Shown here piece after piece: positions 1,839 through 39,579 of a stretch of DNA of 61,609 nucleotides. The notes under the pieces are model-generated. The model did no database searches and was not told the DNA's origin. It saw nothing but the letters and a program-made list of their open reading frames with translations. Source of the stretch: Verrucomicrobiota bacterium. Lineage in GTDB: Bacteria; Verrucomicrobiota; Kiritimatiellia; SS1-B-03-39; UBA6053. How positions within the stretch are numbered: position 1 is the stretch's first letter; every line of letters begins with the position of its first letter. Both the position numbers and the translations under genes were made by a program. The DNA lies in assembly GCA_020831635.1 (NCBI GenBank), contig JAFIGC010000015.1, positions 1 through 61,609 of the forward strand, given 5' to 3'.

Positions 1839-1950
1839 GCCTTCAAATCATGGGGATGGGAACCGTTTCCCGGGGCGTTGCCGCCGGGCTGTCGGGTGTG
1901 ACCCCGGTCCATGGTTCGATGTCCGATGTTTTCTTTTCTTCGATTCCCCC

Positions 1951-2028
1951 CCCCTTCGCCCCTGCCGATGCGGAGATCGGCGCTCCTGTCCCCTTTCGCT
2001 CCTGCCGATGCGGAGATCGGCGTTCCTG
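1951..2028 (+). repeat. interspersed repeat family A, two tandem copies
   Basis: Two copies about 40 bp apart of CCTTCGCYCCTGCCGATGCG continuing GAGATCGGCG. Each contains the small palindrome GCCGA...TCGGC. Further copies lie at 37231-37268, inside a 113-bp element with target duplication, and at 39254-39288 in inverse orientation. Confidence 0.8.
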
Positions 2029-2038
2029 TTTGCATGTT

Positions 2039-4849: not shown

Positions 4850-5206
4850 AATTCCTTGCAATGACAATACGGTTGACCACTTGATTCATTACAAAAGTTT
4901 TGTGAAGATAAGACGTGTGGTGAACGAAATTATTCCCTGCATGTGCCCATGGACGTTAACGGTCAAATAAAAATGGGGTGGATTTTGCCGTGAGGTGCTC
5001 TAAAGGCTATTTTCCTGAAACCGTGAGATCTTTGCTTTGAATCCGCACAATCTCATGGGCTACAAGGGATTGTCGGGAACGCTCGACAGACCGCACGGGT
5101 ATGCCTCGGTTCCCGACAATCCCTTTCGCTCCATGATCTTGCACGCCTTCTTTGCAAAGTTCTCACGGATTCAGGATACTTTTCCAATTTTCACCTTTTT
5201 GCAATT
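4850..5206. other. intergenic region with a family C element
   Basis: A 357-base gap between divergent genes. About half is the 163-bp family C inverted-repeat element (5014-5176). The remaining AT-rich sequence should hold the promoters of both flanking genes, but no clear -35/-10 pair could be fixed. Confidence 0.6.
5014..5176. mobile_element. family C MITE-like inverted-repeat element, 163 bp
   Basis: Its ends are imperfect inverted repeats: CCTGAAACCGTGAGATCTTT on the left and CCTGAATCCGTGAGAACTTT in reverse complement on the right. An internal pair (GGGATTGTCGGGAACGCTCG against GGTTCCCGACAATCCC) makes a long hairpin. No coding capacity. Other copies are 2104-2182 (half), 2421-2473 and 50465-50515 (short forms). 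No clear target duplication is visible. Confidence 0.75.
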
Positions 5207-32221: not shown

Positions 32222-32408
32222 ATATGGAAGCCTTAGAAATAATTACGGGGCCGGGCGGTAGCTCGTAGAACTCGCTACGCGCACTCCAGGGACGCTTCGC
32301 GTCGGCATTCCACACTCCGCACTCCGCATTCGTCACTCGTCACTCGTCTTCCCTCCTCTTCTCTCTCATTGGGCTTGATTCCCGTCGAAGACTCTTTATG
32401 GGTTGTGC
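32222..32408. other. intergenic tail of the cassette region
   Basis: A GC-rich hairpin (GGGACGCTTCGCGTC) and an ACTCCGC tandem run (32308-32350) are visible. No gene. Probably holds the promoter of the glycosyltransferase operon. Confidence 0.5.
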
Positions 32409-35314: not shown

Positions 35315-35689
35315 TCAGCCTTCGGCGATGACTTCAATTTCAACTCGTGATCCCAAGGGCAACGCCGCGACTTGGACGGTGGAACGGGCGGGTTTGTGGT
35401 CTCCGAAGGCTTCCGCGTAGAGTCCATTGACGACCGCGAAATCCTTGAGGTCCGCGAGGAAGACCGTCGCTTTGGCCACATGATCCAAGGTTAAGCCTTC
35501 CGAATCGAGAACGGCGGCAATGTTTTTCAACACTTGTTGGGTTTGTTCGCGAATGCCCCCGGGCACCAAGGCTTTGGTTGCGGGGTCGAGCGGAATCTGA
35601 CCGCTGCAGAAAATGAGATTCCCCACGCGCATGGCTTGGGTGTAGGGACCGACGGCTTCGGGAGCTTGTTTGCTGGTAATTGGTTGCAT
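35315..35689 (-). CDS. RidA family reactive-intermediate deaminase
   Basis: A 124-residue protein with the complete YjgF/RidA pattern: EAVGPYTQAMRVGNLIFCSG (about residues 11-30), QIPLDPATKALVPGGIREQT, QVLKNIAAVLDSEGLTLDHV and the C-terminal Arg/Glu active-site strand RSTVQVAALPLGSRVEIEVI. The Arg in PARSTVQV is the usual substrate-binding residue. RidA hydrolyses 2-aminoacrylate and related enamines, protecting PLP enzymes. A single-gene unit, convergent to tsaB. Confidence 0.92.
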   Translation of the reverse strand: MQPITSKQAPEAVGPYTQAMRVGNLIFCSGQIPLDPATKALVPGGIREQTQQVLKNIAAVLDSEGLTLDHVAKATVFLADLKDFAVVNGLYAEAFGDHKPARSTVQVAALPLGSRVEIEVIAEG

Positions 35690-35729
35690 GGTTTGTCCCT
35701 ATAAACAAACCCGGAGGACTTTTGCAAGT

Positions 35730-35903
35730 TTATCCCGTGGAGGATTCCATTGTTTCTATTTTTTTCAAAACCTCGGCGGCTTTTTCGTGCAGTTCCGAGC
35801 TTTTGACAATGTTACCGCCCCGCTGGGCGTCCATCGCTTGCTTCATGAGGGCTTCGTACTCCTTGCGGAGTTTCTTTTCGGGTTTTTTGCTGAAGAATGT
35901 CAT
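35730..35903 (-). CDS. small DUF6435-like protein
   Basis: A 57-residue lysine-rich helical protein starting at ATG 35903: MTFFSKKPEKKLRKEYEALM, then KQAMDAQRGGNIVKSSELHE and AAEVLKKIE. It matches the layout of the DUF6435 family of short proteins (MF-F-K-x-P-K-KL...Y), whose role is unknown. An upstream in-frame start at 35945 would add 14 residues, but the family normally begins at MTFF. Transcribed divergently from the SufU-like gene across the 10-bp tandem array. Confidence 0.7.
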   Translation of the reverse strand: MTFFSKKPEKKLRKEYEALMKQAMDAQRGGNIVKSSELHEKAAEVLKKIETMESSTG

Positions 35904-35947
35904 TGGATCAATAGAACGGTTGACTAAGGAAAACCTTACAATCATCT

Positions 35948-36057
35948 ATGACCACGTATCACCAAGCATGACCACGTATCACCAAGTATGACAACGTATC
36001 ACCACGTATGACCAAGTATCACCAAGCATGACCATGCATCACCAAGCATGCCCACGT
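35948..36057 (+). repeat. tandem array of eleven 10-bp units
   Basis: Eleven consecutive decamers follow ATSACCAHGY, mostly alternating ATGACCACGT and ATCACCAAGC. The 10-bp period is one helical turn, so equivalent bases face the same side of DNA. It fills the gap between the divergent DUF6435-like and SufU-like genes and ends seven bases before the chosen start of the latter. Confidence 0.85.
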
Positions 36058-36063
36058 CCAACC

Positions 36064-36468
36064 ATGTACCAAAACCACCTCATTCAACTTTCAAAAGACT
36101 CCGCCTTTCGCGAGAAAATCAAGGCGGGGGAAGCCCGCTCGGAGATCAGGAATCCCGCTTGCGGGGATGAGTTGGCTTTGGCATTTGACTTGGTGGAGGA
36201 TACGATTCGGCACATCCGCCATGACAGTCAGGCTTGTGCGATCGTATTGGCCTCCACGCGCGTCTTGTGCGGGGGCATGGAGGGCGCTACGGTGGCGCTG
36301 GCGACGCGACGGGTGGAGGAGGCCATGGCGTTTTTTGAAGGGGAGGGGGATTGGGCGCAAAATTGGGCAGGGGAAGATATGGTCGCCTTGGGCGCGGTTC
36401 GGGCGCATCCCATGCGCATGGCCTGCGTGCGCCTGCCCTGGGAAGCGATGCGGAAAGCGTTAACCTAG
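36064..36468 (+). CDS. SufU/IscU-like iron-sulfur scaffold protein
   Basis: A 134-residue protein with three conserved Cys positions of the IscU/SufU fold: NPACGDELALAFDL (Cys near residue 32), SQACAIVLASTRVLCGGMEG (second) and MACVRLPWEAMRKAL (third). The CGD motif, the GxxC-like loop with A-C-A-I and the C-terminal LPW all match the SufU branch. ATG 36064 is used; an earlier ATG at 36028 encodes repeat DNA. It is not next to any sufS/sufB gene in this window, so it may be a stand-alone scaffold or a zinc-bound sulfur acceptor. Confidence 0.8.
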   Translation: MYQNHLIQLSKDSAFREKIKAGEARSEIRNPACGDELALAFDLVEDTIRHIRHDSQACAIVLASTRVLCGGMEGATVALATRRVEEAMAFFEGEGDWAQNWAGEDMVALGAVRAHPMRMACVRLPWEAMRKALT

Positions 36469-37124
36469 CCAATGCTGGCGTACGGTTTTTTGGCGGGGAC
36501 GCTGACGATTTTTCGTTCCGGGAGGATCAGGCAACTGAGTTTGCCGCCGTAGACGCATCCCGTATCCAGTCCGATGACCCGTGGACGCTGCAAACCGCCC
36601 AGGGCGGCCCAGTGTCCAAACACCACCAAGTCGTCCCCGGCGTAGAAATCGAACCAAGGGGGATTTTCCGGGTTTTTGAGGTCTTCTCCCGTTCCATCCC
36701 AAGTGCGAATGGTGACCAAATGCCAGGGATCGCTTTGATCGGGGTGCAAGCCCGGCACCAGTCCCGCGTGCACCAGCATTAGGTCGTGGTCCTCGTACCA
36801 GAGGGGCCAGTTGTGTACATCCTTGACAAAATCCGCGAAATACCGTCCGAAATCGTGCTGGAGGGCATCGAAATATTTGCCGTGTTTGTGAAATTTCCCT
36901 TCCACCAATTCCAGAAGACTCAGTTCATGGTTTCCCAAGATCGATTTGCCCTGATATTCCCGGTACAATTCCCAGGCACCGCGGGAACTTGGGCCTTTGT
37001 TGATCAGGTCGCCGATAAAAAGGATGTTGTCGGTTTTGGGGTCGGCCGAGACGGTTTTCAGCAACTTTTCCAGCTCTTTGTCACAGCCGTGAACGTCTCC
37101 GATGATGATGGTGCGTTGTGTCAT
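36465..37124 (-). CDS. metallophosphoesterase (ApaH/PrpE-like)
   Basis: A 219-residue cytosolic protein with the calcineurin-like metal-binding series: IIGDVHGCDKELEKLL (about residues 6-21), FIGDLINKGPSSRG, LGNHELSLLE, LMLVHAGLVPG and VVFGHWAALGG. This order and HAGLVPG fit the ApaH/PrpE class that cleaves diadenosine polyphosphates or removes phosphates from proteins. ATG 37124 (MTQRTIII) is used; ATG 37142 is an alternative. The stop overlaps the SufU-like gene end by four bases (convergent). Confidence 0.85.
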   Translation of the reverse strand: MTQRTIIIGDVHGCDKELEKLLKTVSADPKTDNILFIGDLINKGPSSRGAWELYREYQGKSILGNHELSLLELVEGKFHKHGKYFDALQHDFGRYFADFVKDVHNWPLWYEDHDLMLVHAGLVPGLHPDQSDPWHLVTIRTWDGTGEDLKNPENPPWFDFYAGDDLVVFGHWAALGGLQRPRVIGLDTGCVYGGKLSCLILPERKIVSVPAKKPYASIG

Positions 37125-37181
37125 GAGGGATTTCCCTATCATCCCGCGTTCGACATCGCAAGCGTCTCTATACCGGAAATG

Positions 37182-37312
37182 ATCGGATTTCAGGGTCAGC
37201 CACTTTGAAGGAATTCCGAACCGAATTCGCCCCCTTCGCTCCTGCCGAGGCGGAGATCGGCGCTCCCGTTTCCCCCCTAATTCCTTCAAAGTGGATGACC
37301 CTGATCGGATTT
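37182..37312. mobile_element. 113-bp MITE-like element with 25-bp TIRs and 9-bp target duplication
   Basis: The element (37191-37303) starts CAGGGTCAGCCACTTTGAAG+GAATT and ends with the reverse complement, with one mismatch. Both ends directly abut ATCGGATTT (37182-37190 and 37304-37312), a 9-bp target duplication. The interior is one copy of the family A repeat (37231-37268). It lies between the divergent phosphoesterase and agarase-like genes. Confidence 0.88.
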
Positions 37313-37362: not shown

Positions 37363-39234
37363 ATGACAGACTCTAAAATTTATGAGGCGAATTTGCAGGC
37401 GTGGATCATTCCGGAAAGTGGCGAGATCGCCAGCGTGGAACGTTACGAAGGTTTGCGGGATGGCGGGGGACACATGGTGGCCCGGCCCGTCCTGCGAGTT
37501 CATCATGCTTTGGCGCGGGACACTGTGGATGGCCTGGCGCTTCATTTTTCCCAAGACGGCGCTTTTTTGCAAGCGGATGTGACGGCTCTGGGCTTCCCGA
37601 ACGAGTGGTCGGTGCTCCATGGGCTGGAGGCGGAGGTCACCAACGGAGAATTTCCCCTCATTTTGGAGCTTACCCTGACGGGTGCCCGGGGGCGTTTTCG
37701 GACCCGGCAACCGCTTGCAGCGGGTGAAACGGCGACGGTTTTGTTGTCCGTTCCCGATTTCCCATTGGCCCAGGGAATTCACCCTCCCTGGCAACCGGCA
37801 TCGATCCGGTTGCAGGCCCAGTGGGGCGACACATGGGAAACGGAAGGACAACAGGTGGAACAGCGCGGAAATTGGCCGGCGACCTCAGACAACAAACCGG
37901 TGACGGTGCTGCTGCACAAGCTTCGCGCTTTGCCGCGCGGGGAGGACGGCCCCAAAGCGATCGTCGACCGATATGGACAACGCATCCATGCCGAATGGCC
38001 GGGGAAAATTCATGACGACTCGGACTTGCATCGTCAAAAGGAAGCGGAGCAAGTGTTGTCCCCCCTGCGCCCGCCTTCTGACTTCAGTTCTTTTGGCGGT
38101 TTCAAGCGGATGCCGCAACATGCCGCCAGCGGATTTTTTCGGGTGGAGAAAGATGATCGGGGAAATTGGTGGTTCATTGATCCGGAGGGGTGGCGGTTTT
38201 GGTCCGTGGGCACCACCGGCGTGCGTCTGTTTGACAACACCGTCACCACGGGACGGGAGGCGTTTTTCGAAGAACTGCCCGTTCCTCAGGGGCCGTTTGC
38301 GGCCGCCATCAATCCCAAGATCAACAGTCCGGCCAATAATCCGGGTGGGCGGGATACGGTGGCGTTTTACATGTGGAACGTGTTGCGGAAATACGGGGAT
38401 GTGAGGGTTTGGCGGGACCAGGTCATTCGCCGATTCCGCTCCTGGGGCTTCAATACCCTGGGGAATTGGTCCGAACTCGAACATTTTCGCGATGCCGGAT
38501 TTCCGCTCACGGTGACCTTGAGCACCCGGGTGCCGGGCATTGAATCGCTTCCGGGGAATTTACCGGATTTGCATCATCCGGAGTGGGAAGAAAAATTTGA
38601 AGCGCATGTGGCCGAAGTCGCGGGCGCGTGGCGAGACAACCCATATGTGTTGGGCTATTTCGTGGACAATGAAATGGGCTGGGGTCGATTGCAGGAAGGC
38701 GAACGCAAGGAATACGCGGAGCGGTATTTCAGTTCGGTGTCCCGTATTCTGAAAAAACACGATCCAAATCATCTCTATCTGGGTTGTCGGTTTGTGCGCT
38801 TCAAGCCGCATGTTGAGGTGTGTCGCGCGGCGGGGGCATCCTGTGATGTGGTGACGGTGAATTCCTATGACATCTGGCCGCGTCGGGAGGATTTTTCCGT
38901 GTGGCATCAGGAGACCGGGCGTCCGATTCTCATTGGCGAGCACCATCTACCGTTGGACACGCCCCGCCAGGTGCCGCCCTTGTATCCCGCCTTTACCCCA
39001 CAAGAGCGGGAAAGACTGTATGCGGAGTTGGTGGAAAAATGGGCGGGTCAGCCGTGGTCATTGGGGTGTCATTGGTATCAACACGCCGACCAGCACTTGA
39101 CCGGACGTCCCCTGGACGGTGAAAACCAGCCGGTCGGGGTGGTGGATATCACGGACACGCCTCACCCGGAGATGGTCCGGGCCATCCGCGCGGCCACGGC
39201 GAATATGTGGGAATGGCATGAATCGGCCGAATAA
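37363..39234 (+). CDS. agarase-like glycoside hydrolase (GH50-like)
   Basis: A 623-residue protein taken from ATG 37363; upstream starts run into the adjacent element. No signal peptide. After a ~230-residue beta-rich N-terminal part, the TIM barrel has FWSVGTTGVRLFDNTVTTGR, SWGFNTLGNWSELEHFRDAG, PYVLGYFVDNEMGWGRLQEG (acid/base Glu in DNE) and PILIGEHHLPLDTPRQVPPL (nucleophile Glu in IGEHH). These match beta-agarase families of the GH50 type that release neoagaro-oligosaccharides. Without a signal it would act on imported oligosaccharides, or the true start may have been displaced by the element. No agar-related genes adjoin it. Confidence 0.75.
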   Translation: MTDSKIYEANLQAWIIPESGEIASVERYEGLRDGGGHMVARPVLRVHHALARDTVDGLALHFSQDGAFLQADVTALGFPNEWSVLHGLEAEVTNGEFPLILELTLTGARGRFRTRQPLAAGETATVLLSVPDFPLAQGIHPPWQPASIRLQAQWGDTWETEGQQVEQRGNWPATSDNKPVTVLLHKLRALPRGEDGPKAIVDRYGQRIHAEWPGKIHDDSDLHRQKEAEQVLSPLRPPSDFSSFGGFKRMPQHAASGFFRVEKDDRGNWWFIDPEGWRFWSVGTTGVRLFDNTVTTGREAFFEELPVPQGPFAAAINPKINSPANNPGGRDTVAFYMWNVLRKYGDVRVWRDQVIRRFRSWGFNTLGNWSELEHFRDAGFPLTVTLSTRVPGIESLPGNLPDLHHPEWEEKFEAHVAEVAGAWRDNPYVLGYFVDNEMGWGRLQEGERKEYAERYFSSVSRILKKHDPNHLYLGCRFVRFKPHVEVCRAAGASCDVVTVNSYDIWPRREDFSVWHQETGRPILIGEHHLPLDTPRQVPPLYPAFTPQERERLYAELVEKWAGQPWSLGCHWYQHADQHLTGRPLDGENQPVGVVDITDTPHPEMVRAIRAATANMWEWHESAE

Positions 39235-39579
39235 ATTATGGGGCGAAAGGGGGCGGGAGCGCCGGTCTCCGTATCGGCAGGGGCGAAGGAGGCCAGCGAT
39301 GCGGATGTTATTGATGCTCGTAAATTCCCGCCCCTGAAGGGGCCCGGGGAACCGGCTAAAGGGCCTGTTGATTTATTGAAACGAAGAGGTTTTTAACCGC
39401 TTAAGGACGCTAAAAGAACGCTAAAATTAACTTAATTAAATTATTTTAAGCGTGCATTAAGCGTTTTTTATCGGTTTCTAAATAACTGCAATGAATAAAT
39501 CGACAGGCTCTTTATCCGGTTCCAAAGGAGGCTTTCGCCCATGTTTTTGGGTGTGGGTTTCAAACAAGCCCCTGATGAT
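39235..39579. other. intergenic region with family A copy and AT-rich tail
   Basis: The first part is the inverse family A copy (39254-39288). Two GC hairpins (CCGCCCCTGAAGGGGC) follow. The rest is AT-rich with CGCTTAA/TTAAGCG motifs that form an imperfect inverted repeat near 39395-39475, a possible weak terminator. No gene. Confidence 0.5.
39254..39288 (-). repeat. interspersed repeat family A
   Basis: The reverse complement reads CCTTCGCCCCTGCCGATACG and GAGACCGGCGCTCCCG. It is similar to the copies at 1951-2028 and 37231-37268. Confidence 0.75.

Follow-up and report, generated by a model that had tools for sequence, protein, structure and literature searches.

The window, a stretch of 61,609 nucleotides, is contig 297 (C297) of a genome of 6.0 Mb in 308 contigs (G000). 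It carries a short tandem array between two divergent genes, for which Pfam gives DUF6435 (E 3.9e-17) and NifU_N (E 1.6e-7), in agreement with the DUF6435-like and SufU/IscU-like neighbours proposed in the initial annotation. The locus comprises:

35730-35903, minus strand: DUF6435 gene, likely start at 35903, with an open frame to 35945
35942-36057: segment replaced by a single base in the same-genus genome G002, where the BLASTN blocks 35320-35941 and 36058-37171 lie one base apart
35948-36057, plus strand: array of 11 head-to-tail 10-bp units, consensus ATNACCAHGY
36058-36075, plus strand: unit-like sequence CCAACCATGTACCAAAAC at the NifU start, in array register (G002 has CCGACCATGTATCAAAAT there)
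36064-36468, plus strand: NifU-like gene with the NifU_N domain (ORF 36028-36468)

The eleven decamers, counted earlier from the letters alone, were confirmed by direct reading, and the array as such with Tandem Repeats Finder and against shuffled sequence. Tandem Repeats Finder described the array both with a period of 20 (5.5 copies, 86% matches, score 164) and with a period of 10 (10.8 copies, 76% matches, score 104). A two-unit pattern, ATNACCAHGYATNACCAHGY, searched with up to 2 mismatches, matched 10 times across the window, each time within the array, whereas 100 dinucleotide-preserving shuffles gave a mean of 0.01 matches and a maximum of 1. The proposed unit pattern ATSACCAHGY holds for most of the array: nine of the eleven units fit exactly, but unit 5 (ATGACAACGT) and unit 11 (ATGCCCACGT) are each one base off. 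Likewise, the claimed alternation of two unit types stands at position 3, where G and C alternate strictly through 11/11 units (ATG versus ATC units), but is loose in the second halves of the units (C, A or T at position 8; T or C at position 10). Hence, the alternation of ATGACCACGT and ATCACCAAGC is approximate.

With likely start codons at 35903 on the minus strand and 36064 on the plus strand, the array takes up 110 of the ~160 bp of the gap, and it would occupy nearly the whole gap if the DUF6435 gene started at an upstream ATG (ORF 35730-35945). The NifU start codon lies 6 bp downstream of the array end. We rejected the array as coding sequence: of seven ATGs located within or next to it, four open just 7 codons, and the ATG at 36048 opens 40 codons in a frame that differs from that of NifU. 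No sigma-70-type promoter was found at 35700-36200, and the two terminator-like sites there (0.7 expected) both lie outside the array.

We found the same decamer, as ATNACCAHGY arrays, at five further intergenic places of the genome, giving six loci on six contigs:

C297:35948-36057, plus strand: 11 units, the window array
C3:2716-2815: array ending 60 bp upstream of a glucoamylase gene's open frame
C75:36490-36592: irregular array with 11-bp steps, starting in the stop codon of fba, the fructose-bisphosphate aldolase gene, and ending before a terminator (by eye)
C94:40111-40170, minus strand: array between two divergent genes
C225:12261-12450: 19 units, flanked by the 5' end of a small ORF on the minus strand and the 3' end of a PrsW-type protease gene
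C237:2890-3009: 12 units where two gene ends converge, one base short of a PIN-domain gene's stop codon

Upon testing their location against ORFs judged real, all six arrays lay between such ORFs, at most overlapping a stop codon. They occur at both 5' and 3' gene ends, and decamer arrays are therefore not confined to promoters. No flank is shared by all six. The C225 array shows a higher-order period of 70, and the C237 array is preceded by a diverged block (2810-2889) that we read as the decamer unit on the opposite strand, that is, inverted; a sequence model trained on the plus sequence of this block matches both of its strands, the plus strand somewhat better. This model (40 positions, built from 17 stretches of five of the six loci, with the 150 best first-look candidates scored per genome) recovered the same six loci in the own genome and no more below E 0.27. 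All 32 genomic occurrences of the exact 1.4-unit site ATNACCAHGYATNA fall within arrays, so that no solitary exact site lies outside them; elsewhere it gave one match in G002, and one match each was obtained in G000 and G001 with its reversed controls. Two units with 2 mismatches were found at six non-array places of G000 versus three for the reversed control, and such matches are therefore near chance level.

Variation within the units is centred on few positions. We tallied 65 units, trimmed from 75 by removing degenerate edge units of C3, C94 and C237, with the C237 block 2810-2889 read on the reverse strand and C75 omitted from both sets because its register is broken. The counts were A 65 at position 1; T 59 and C 6 at position 2; C 39, G 18, A 4 and T 4 at position 3; A 55 at position 4; C 64 at position 5; C 50 and A 13 at position 6; A 65 at position 7; C 25, A 20, T 20 and G 0 at position 8; G 63 at position 9; and T 38, C 26 and A 1 at position 10. 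Positions 3, 8 and 10 thus carry most of the variation, while positions 4 and 6 vary moderately, mainly through C94 and the C237 reverse block. Associations between the variable positions gave p 0.002 for 3-8, 0.057 for 3-10 and 0.081 for 8-10, and founder haplotypes as the origin of the variation are weakened. Variation at fixed positions points either to a constraint or to a polymorphic donor from which units were copied. Such a donor array could account for the pattern; against this, the 65 units comprise 36 distinct sequences, with fairly free combination of the variable positions.

In contrast to the array, its gene pair is found in relatives. Ten other genomes of the family were compared in total, with G001, G002 and G003 belonging to the same genus. 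G002 keeps the gene order (BLASTN identity of 82% over 36058-37171 and 76% over 35320-35941), and the gap between the likely DUF6435 and NifU start codons measures 160 bp here versus 45 bp for G002 and 43 bp for G003, making it ~115 bp longer here. The divergent pair carries no array in G002, G003 and G004 (by eye for G004), and because the pair in G002 lacks it, we conclude that this lineage acquired the array after it had separated from G002. NifU-like matches were also obtained in six other family genomes, but the DUF6435 match there sits on a different contig or at a distance of over 1 Mb. In G001, nothing NifU-like was matched. At three loci (this gene pair, fba and C94), G002 has no decamer array, and presence or absence of arrays thus differs between species of the genus. 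The fba locus carries five GACGART heptamers in G003 and a degenerate stretch in G001. At the C237 locus, the G002 contig ends too early, while G001 shows no decamers after the gene and has a different next gene. Eight flank pieces were searched for in the same-genus genomes G001-G003, with 40 candidates scored in each genome. Four of the pieces (C3, C225 and the downstream sides of C75 and C237) remained unmatched, and no ortholog of the C3 or C225 locus was found.

In wider searches, three units with up to 1 mismatch matched one of 345 genomes of the class, the own genome, with 0 for the reversed control, in a search that would miss relatives whose arrays use another consensus. The sequence model gave no match below E 0.28 among the 150 best candidates in each of the ten other family genomes. 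Three exact units were found in six stretches of an 84,980-species collection and in one viral contig, a requirement that misses weaker arrays, in a collection from which records near the window's genome were perhaps excluded. Each of these seven outside matches carries a single array with 3 to about 12 units, and four have G at position 8; we do not count these arrays of other bacteria and a virus as relatives and take them to be convergent.

We therefore regard the six genomic places, together with the absence in the closest relative compared, as more like a recently spread satellite than a conserved gene switch: the arrays are probably a young, lineage-specific family of dispersed tandem repeats, a form of short satellite DNA. 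In favour of this reading, the six arrays have one consensus and no flank common to all. Blocks of units would have been copied from one array into new places, by template switching or ectopic repair; at the NifU locus, this copying may have been guided by a chance unit match at the start codon, and slippage, one or two units at a time, would then have lengthened or shortened the arrays. The dimer and higher-order periods (20 here, 70 at C225) suggest such growth by slippage. No donor-recipient pair of arrays with identical unit order was identified among the six. The array itself most likely has no dedicated function, and its effect is probably incidental, a predicted leader or spacer of the NifU-like gene that is ~115 bp longer. 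The initial annotation had also offered a hypervariable microsatellite that tunes promoter spacing, and this has some support as a repeat tract that changes spacing, given the gap length relative to G002 and G003 and the periods that suggest slippage. The point that the satellite reading handles least well is the variation at fixed positions, which plain slippage and drift do not predict.

A chance match as guide for insertion or growth is supported at the NifU locus. The empty site of G002 reads GACCATGTATCA at the NifU start, a unit match in array register with p about 0.0003 when scored against 4000 stretches drawn at random from 23364 G002 bases, for sites picked after inspection. At the other empty sites, the seed is weak or absent (fba p 0.11; C94 p 0.50), and with significance at one site of three we do not adopt seeded insertion as a general rule.

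We weighed the alternatives in descending order of probability. The initial annotation had suggested phased protein-binding half-sites in a control region: a putative DNA-binding protein would occupy one unit per helical turn, controlling divergent promoters or loading at several places. The 10-bp period is consistent with it, as are the presence of six arrays in one genome and the conserved positions 1, 5, 7 and 9 (65, 64, 65 and 63 of 65 units) beside free ones, which resemble a recognition site. However, three relatives have the gene pair without the array, so that neither unit number nor sequence is conserved at the orthologous promoter; arrays also stand at 3' gene ends; the exact 1.4-unit sites are restricted to arrays; and the C75 array breaks the 10-bp phase with its 11-bp steps. 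We hence consider protein binding unlikely, and a helical-period array between divergent genes need not be a regulatory site.

Also unlikely is an element acting at the RNA level, where the transcribed array would influence translation or stability, as proposed for TAACTGA repeats. The array ends just before the NifU start, where none of the Shine-Dalgarno-like motifs tried was found; the ATGs at 36028 and 36034 within the array are in the NifU frame and would add 12 or 10 residues; and the C75 array lies between a stop codon and a terminator (by eye). Yet, NifU in G002 and G003 also lacks the tested Shine-Dalgarno motifs without having an array, the RNA structure of the array gave no signal relative to shuffles (z 0.10 and 0.02), and the C225 array is antisense to both of its neighbours.

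The genus holds a second family of short arrays, the GACGART heptamers, whose very unequal copy number offers a parallel for the satellite reading. Searched as three units with up to 1 mismatch, GACGART gave 521 overlapping matches in G003, 39 in G000, 2 in G002 and 1 in G001, a difference of about 500-fold between species of one genus, and none in seven other family genomes, with reversed controls at zero. Nine arrays from ten stretches yielded 49 units, with two stretches giving none. Position 4 is G in all 49; position 6 is G in 25, A in 23 and C in 1, a count that leans to R because the search fetching most stretches required R there; and non-consensus bases stand at position 2 in 9 units and at position 3 in 8. 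The window contains an array of this family at 32300-32348 on the minus strand (GACGAGT, GACGAGT and GACGAAT, then GCGGAGT-type units). Directly after the fba stop codon, G003 carries GACGART heptamers (L075:1784-1818) where decamers stand here (L030:6491-6596). It is very doubtful that both families are kept or written by a dedicated factor, be it a position-fixing protein or RNA or a copying enzyme unfaithful at set positions; if this were true, array alphabets would differ from species to species within the genus, even at a shared gene end (the fba stop codon). A reverse transcriptase as the writer was rejected: the only one found in the genome (L106:982-2748; best PADLOC match RT_UG9_small, E 3.9e-184, defence-type) is unlinked to the arrays.

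A purely local expansion from a native seed at each place, with no copying between loci, is highly improbable: it fits the seed in register at the NifU start, but not the unit common to six loci, nor the seeds lacking significance at two of three empty sites. Least probable is the array as cargo of a miniature transposable element, as with BrickBuilt of Porphyromonas; the C3 array does start one base after a 160-bp repeat, and a related repeat precedes C225 and C237, but no repeat adjoins all six arrays, and the segment gained relative to G002 consists of the array and about 5 further bp, at which neither terminal inverted repeats nor a target duplication were apparent on inspection by eye.

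The decamer family probably belongs to a known kind, that of dispersed intergenic short tandem repeats, with which it shares two defining features, one unit at several unlinked places and intergenic arrays; the unit itself appears to be new. The STRR of heterocystous cyanobacteria, a different phylum, are genus-typical short units (heptamers) in dispersed intergenic arrays. A limited search of titles and abstract openings found no dispersed bacterial decamer family. TAACTGA direct repeats are described from marine Beggiatoaceae, Cyanobacteria and Bacteroidetes as a 7-bp unit that forms 169 sets in one genome, most of them ahead of start codons; their function is a proposal, and close relatives of two of the Bacteroidetes are reported to have shorter gaps with no obvious repeats (MacGregor 2015, PMC4679880). 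They resemble the decamers in forming intergenic arrays of one short unit at many places, many ending within nucleotides of a start codon, whereas the decamer family has a 10-bp unit and six arrays, at 5' and 3' ends. The GGGNATC and GGGGA(C/T)T heptamers of Xanthomonas and Nostoc, for which variable unit number is reported (Rehm 2015, PMC4692102), similarly form dispersed, mostly non-coding arrays with one degenerate position. They are described as G-rich, quadruplex-folding and rare between divergent genes, unlike the decamer, which is not G-rich; and 90% of them have the same flanking genes in two Xanthomonas species (PMC4692102), whereas the decamer is absent in the nearest relative compared. 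BrickBuilt of Porphyromonas gingivalis is presented as a MITE-borne minisatellite, intergenic and species-restricted, at 19 places, and differs in that its 23-bp unit is embedded in an element that has a leader, a tail and inverted ends, which was not seen here (PMC4596501). The tandem repeats of Borgs are described as rapidly formed arrays with units unique per locus and generally perfect (PMC9879509); local repeats of this type were rejected here, given a unit common to six loci and a local seed significant at one of three empty sites. Satellites that moved to several loci are reported in Leptospira interrogans and Methanocella conradii, and the survey, covering 119 species of bacteria and 142 of archaea, describes non-coding satellite families that have moved for a single bacterium and a single archaeon; these are long repeats, unlike the 10-bp unit (PMC6749651).

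A small, probably young family with readable empty sites, next to a heptamer family of such unequal copy number, makes the spread of one unit to unlinked places without a transposon testable by strain comparison.

Several further features lie near the arrays or elsewhere in the genome. Toxin-antitoxin-like genes occur near three of the six decamer arrays (L033:3011-3741, a PIN domain by Pfam; L032:5333-6006 and L029:1552-1869, both by eye). The ~160-bp dispersed repeat has copies at window positions 5014-5178, L029:2554-2714, L030:4736-4900 and L032:11061-11189, which are 89-95% identical and partly similar to their own reverse complement; the L029 copy stops one base short of a decamer array. 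A second dispersed intergenic repeat occurs in both orientations at window positions 1950-2031, 37229-37282 and 39234-39293, with a tandem duplication at 1950-2029. An array of ACCAGCA heptamers lies at L033:283-348 or, in reverse complement, at L031 520-635, with similar sequence at the other locus, and these heptamers are perhaps a third dispersed tandem family.
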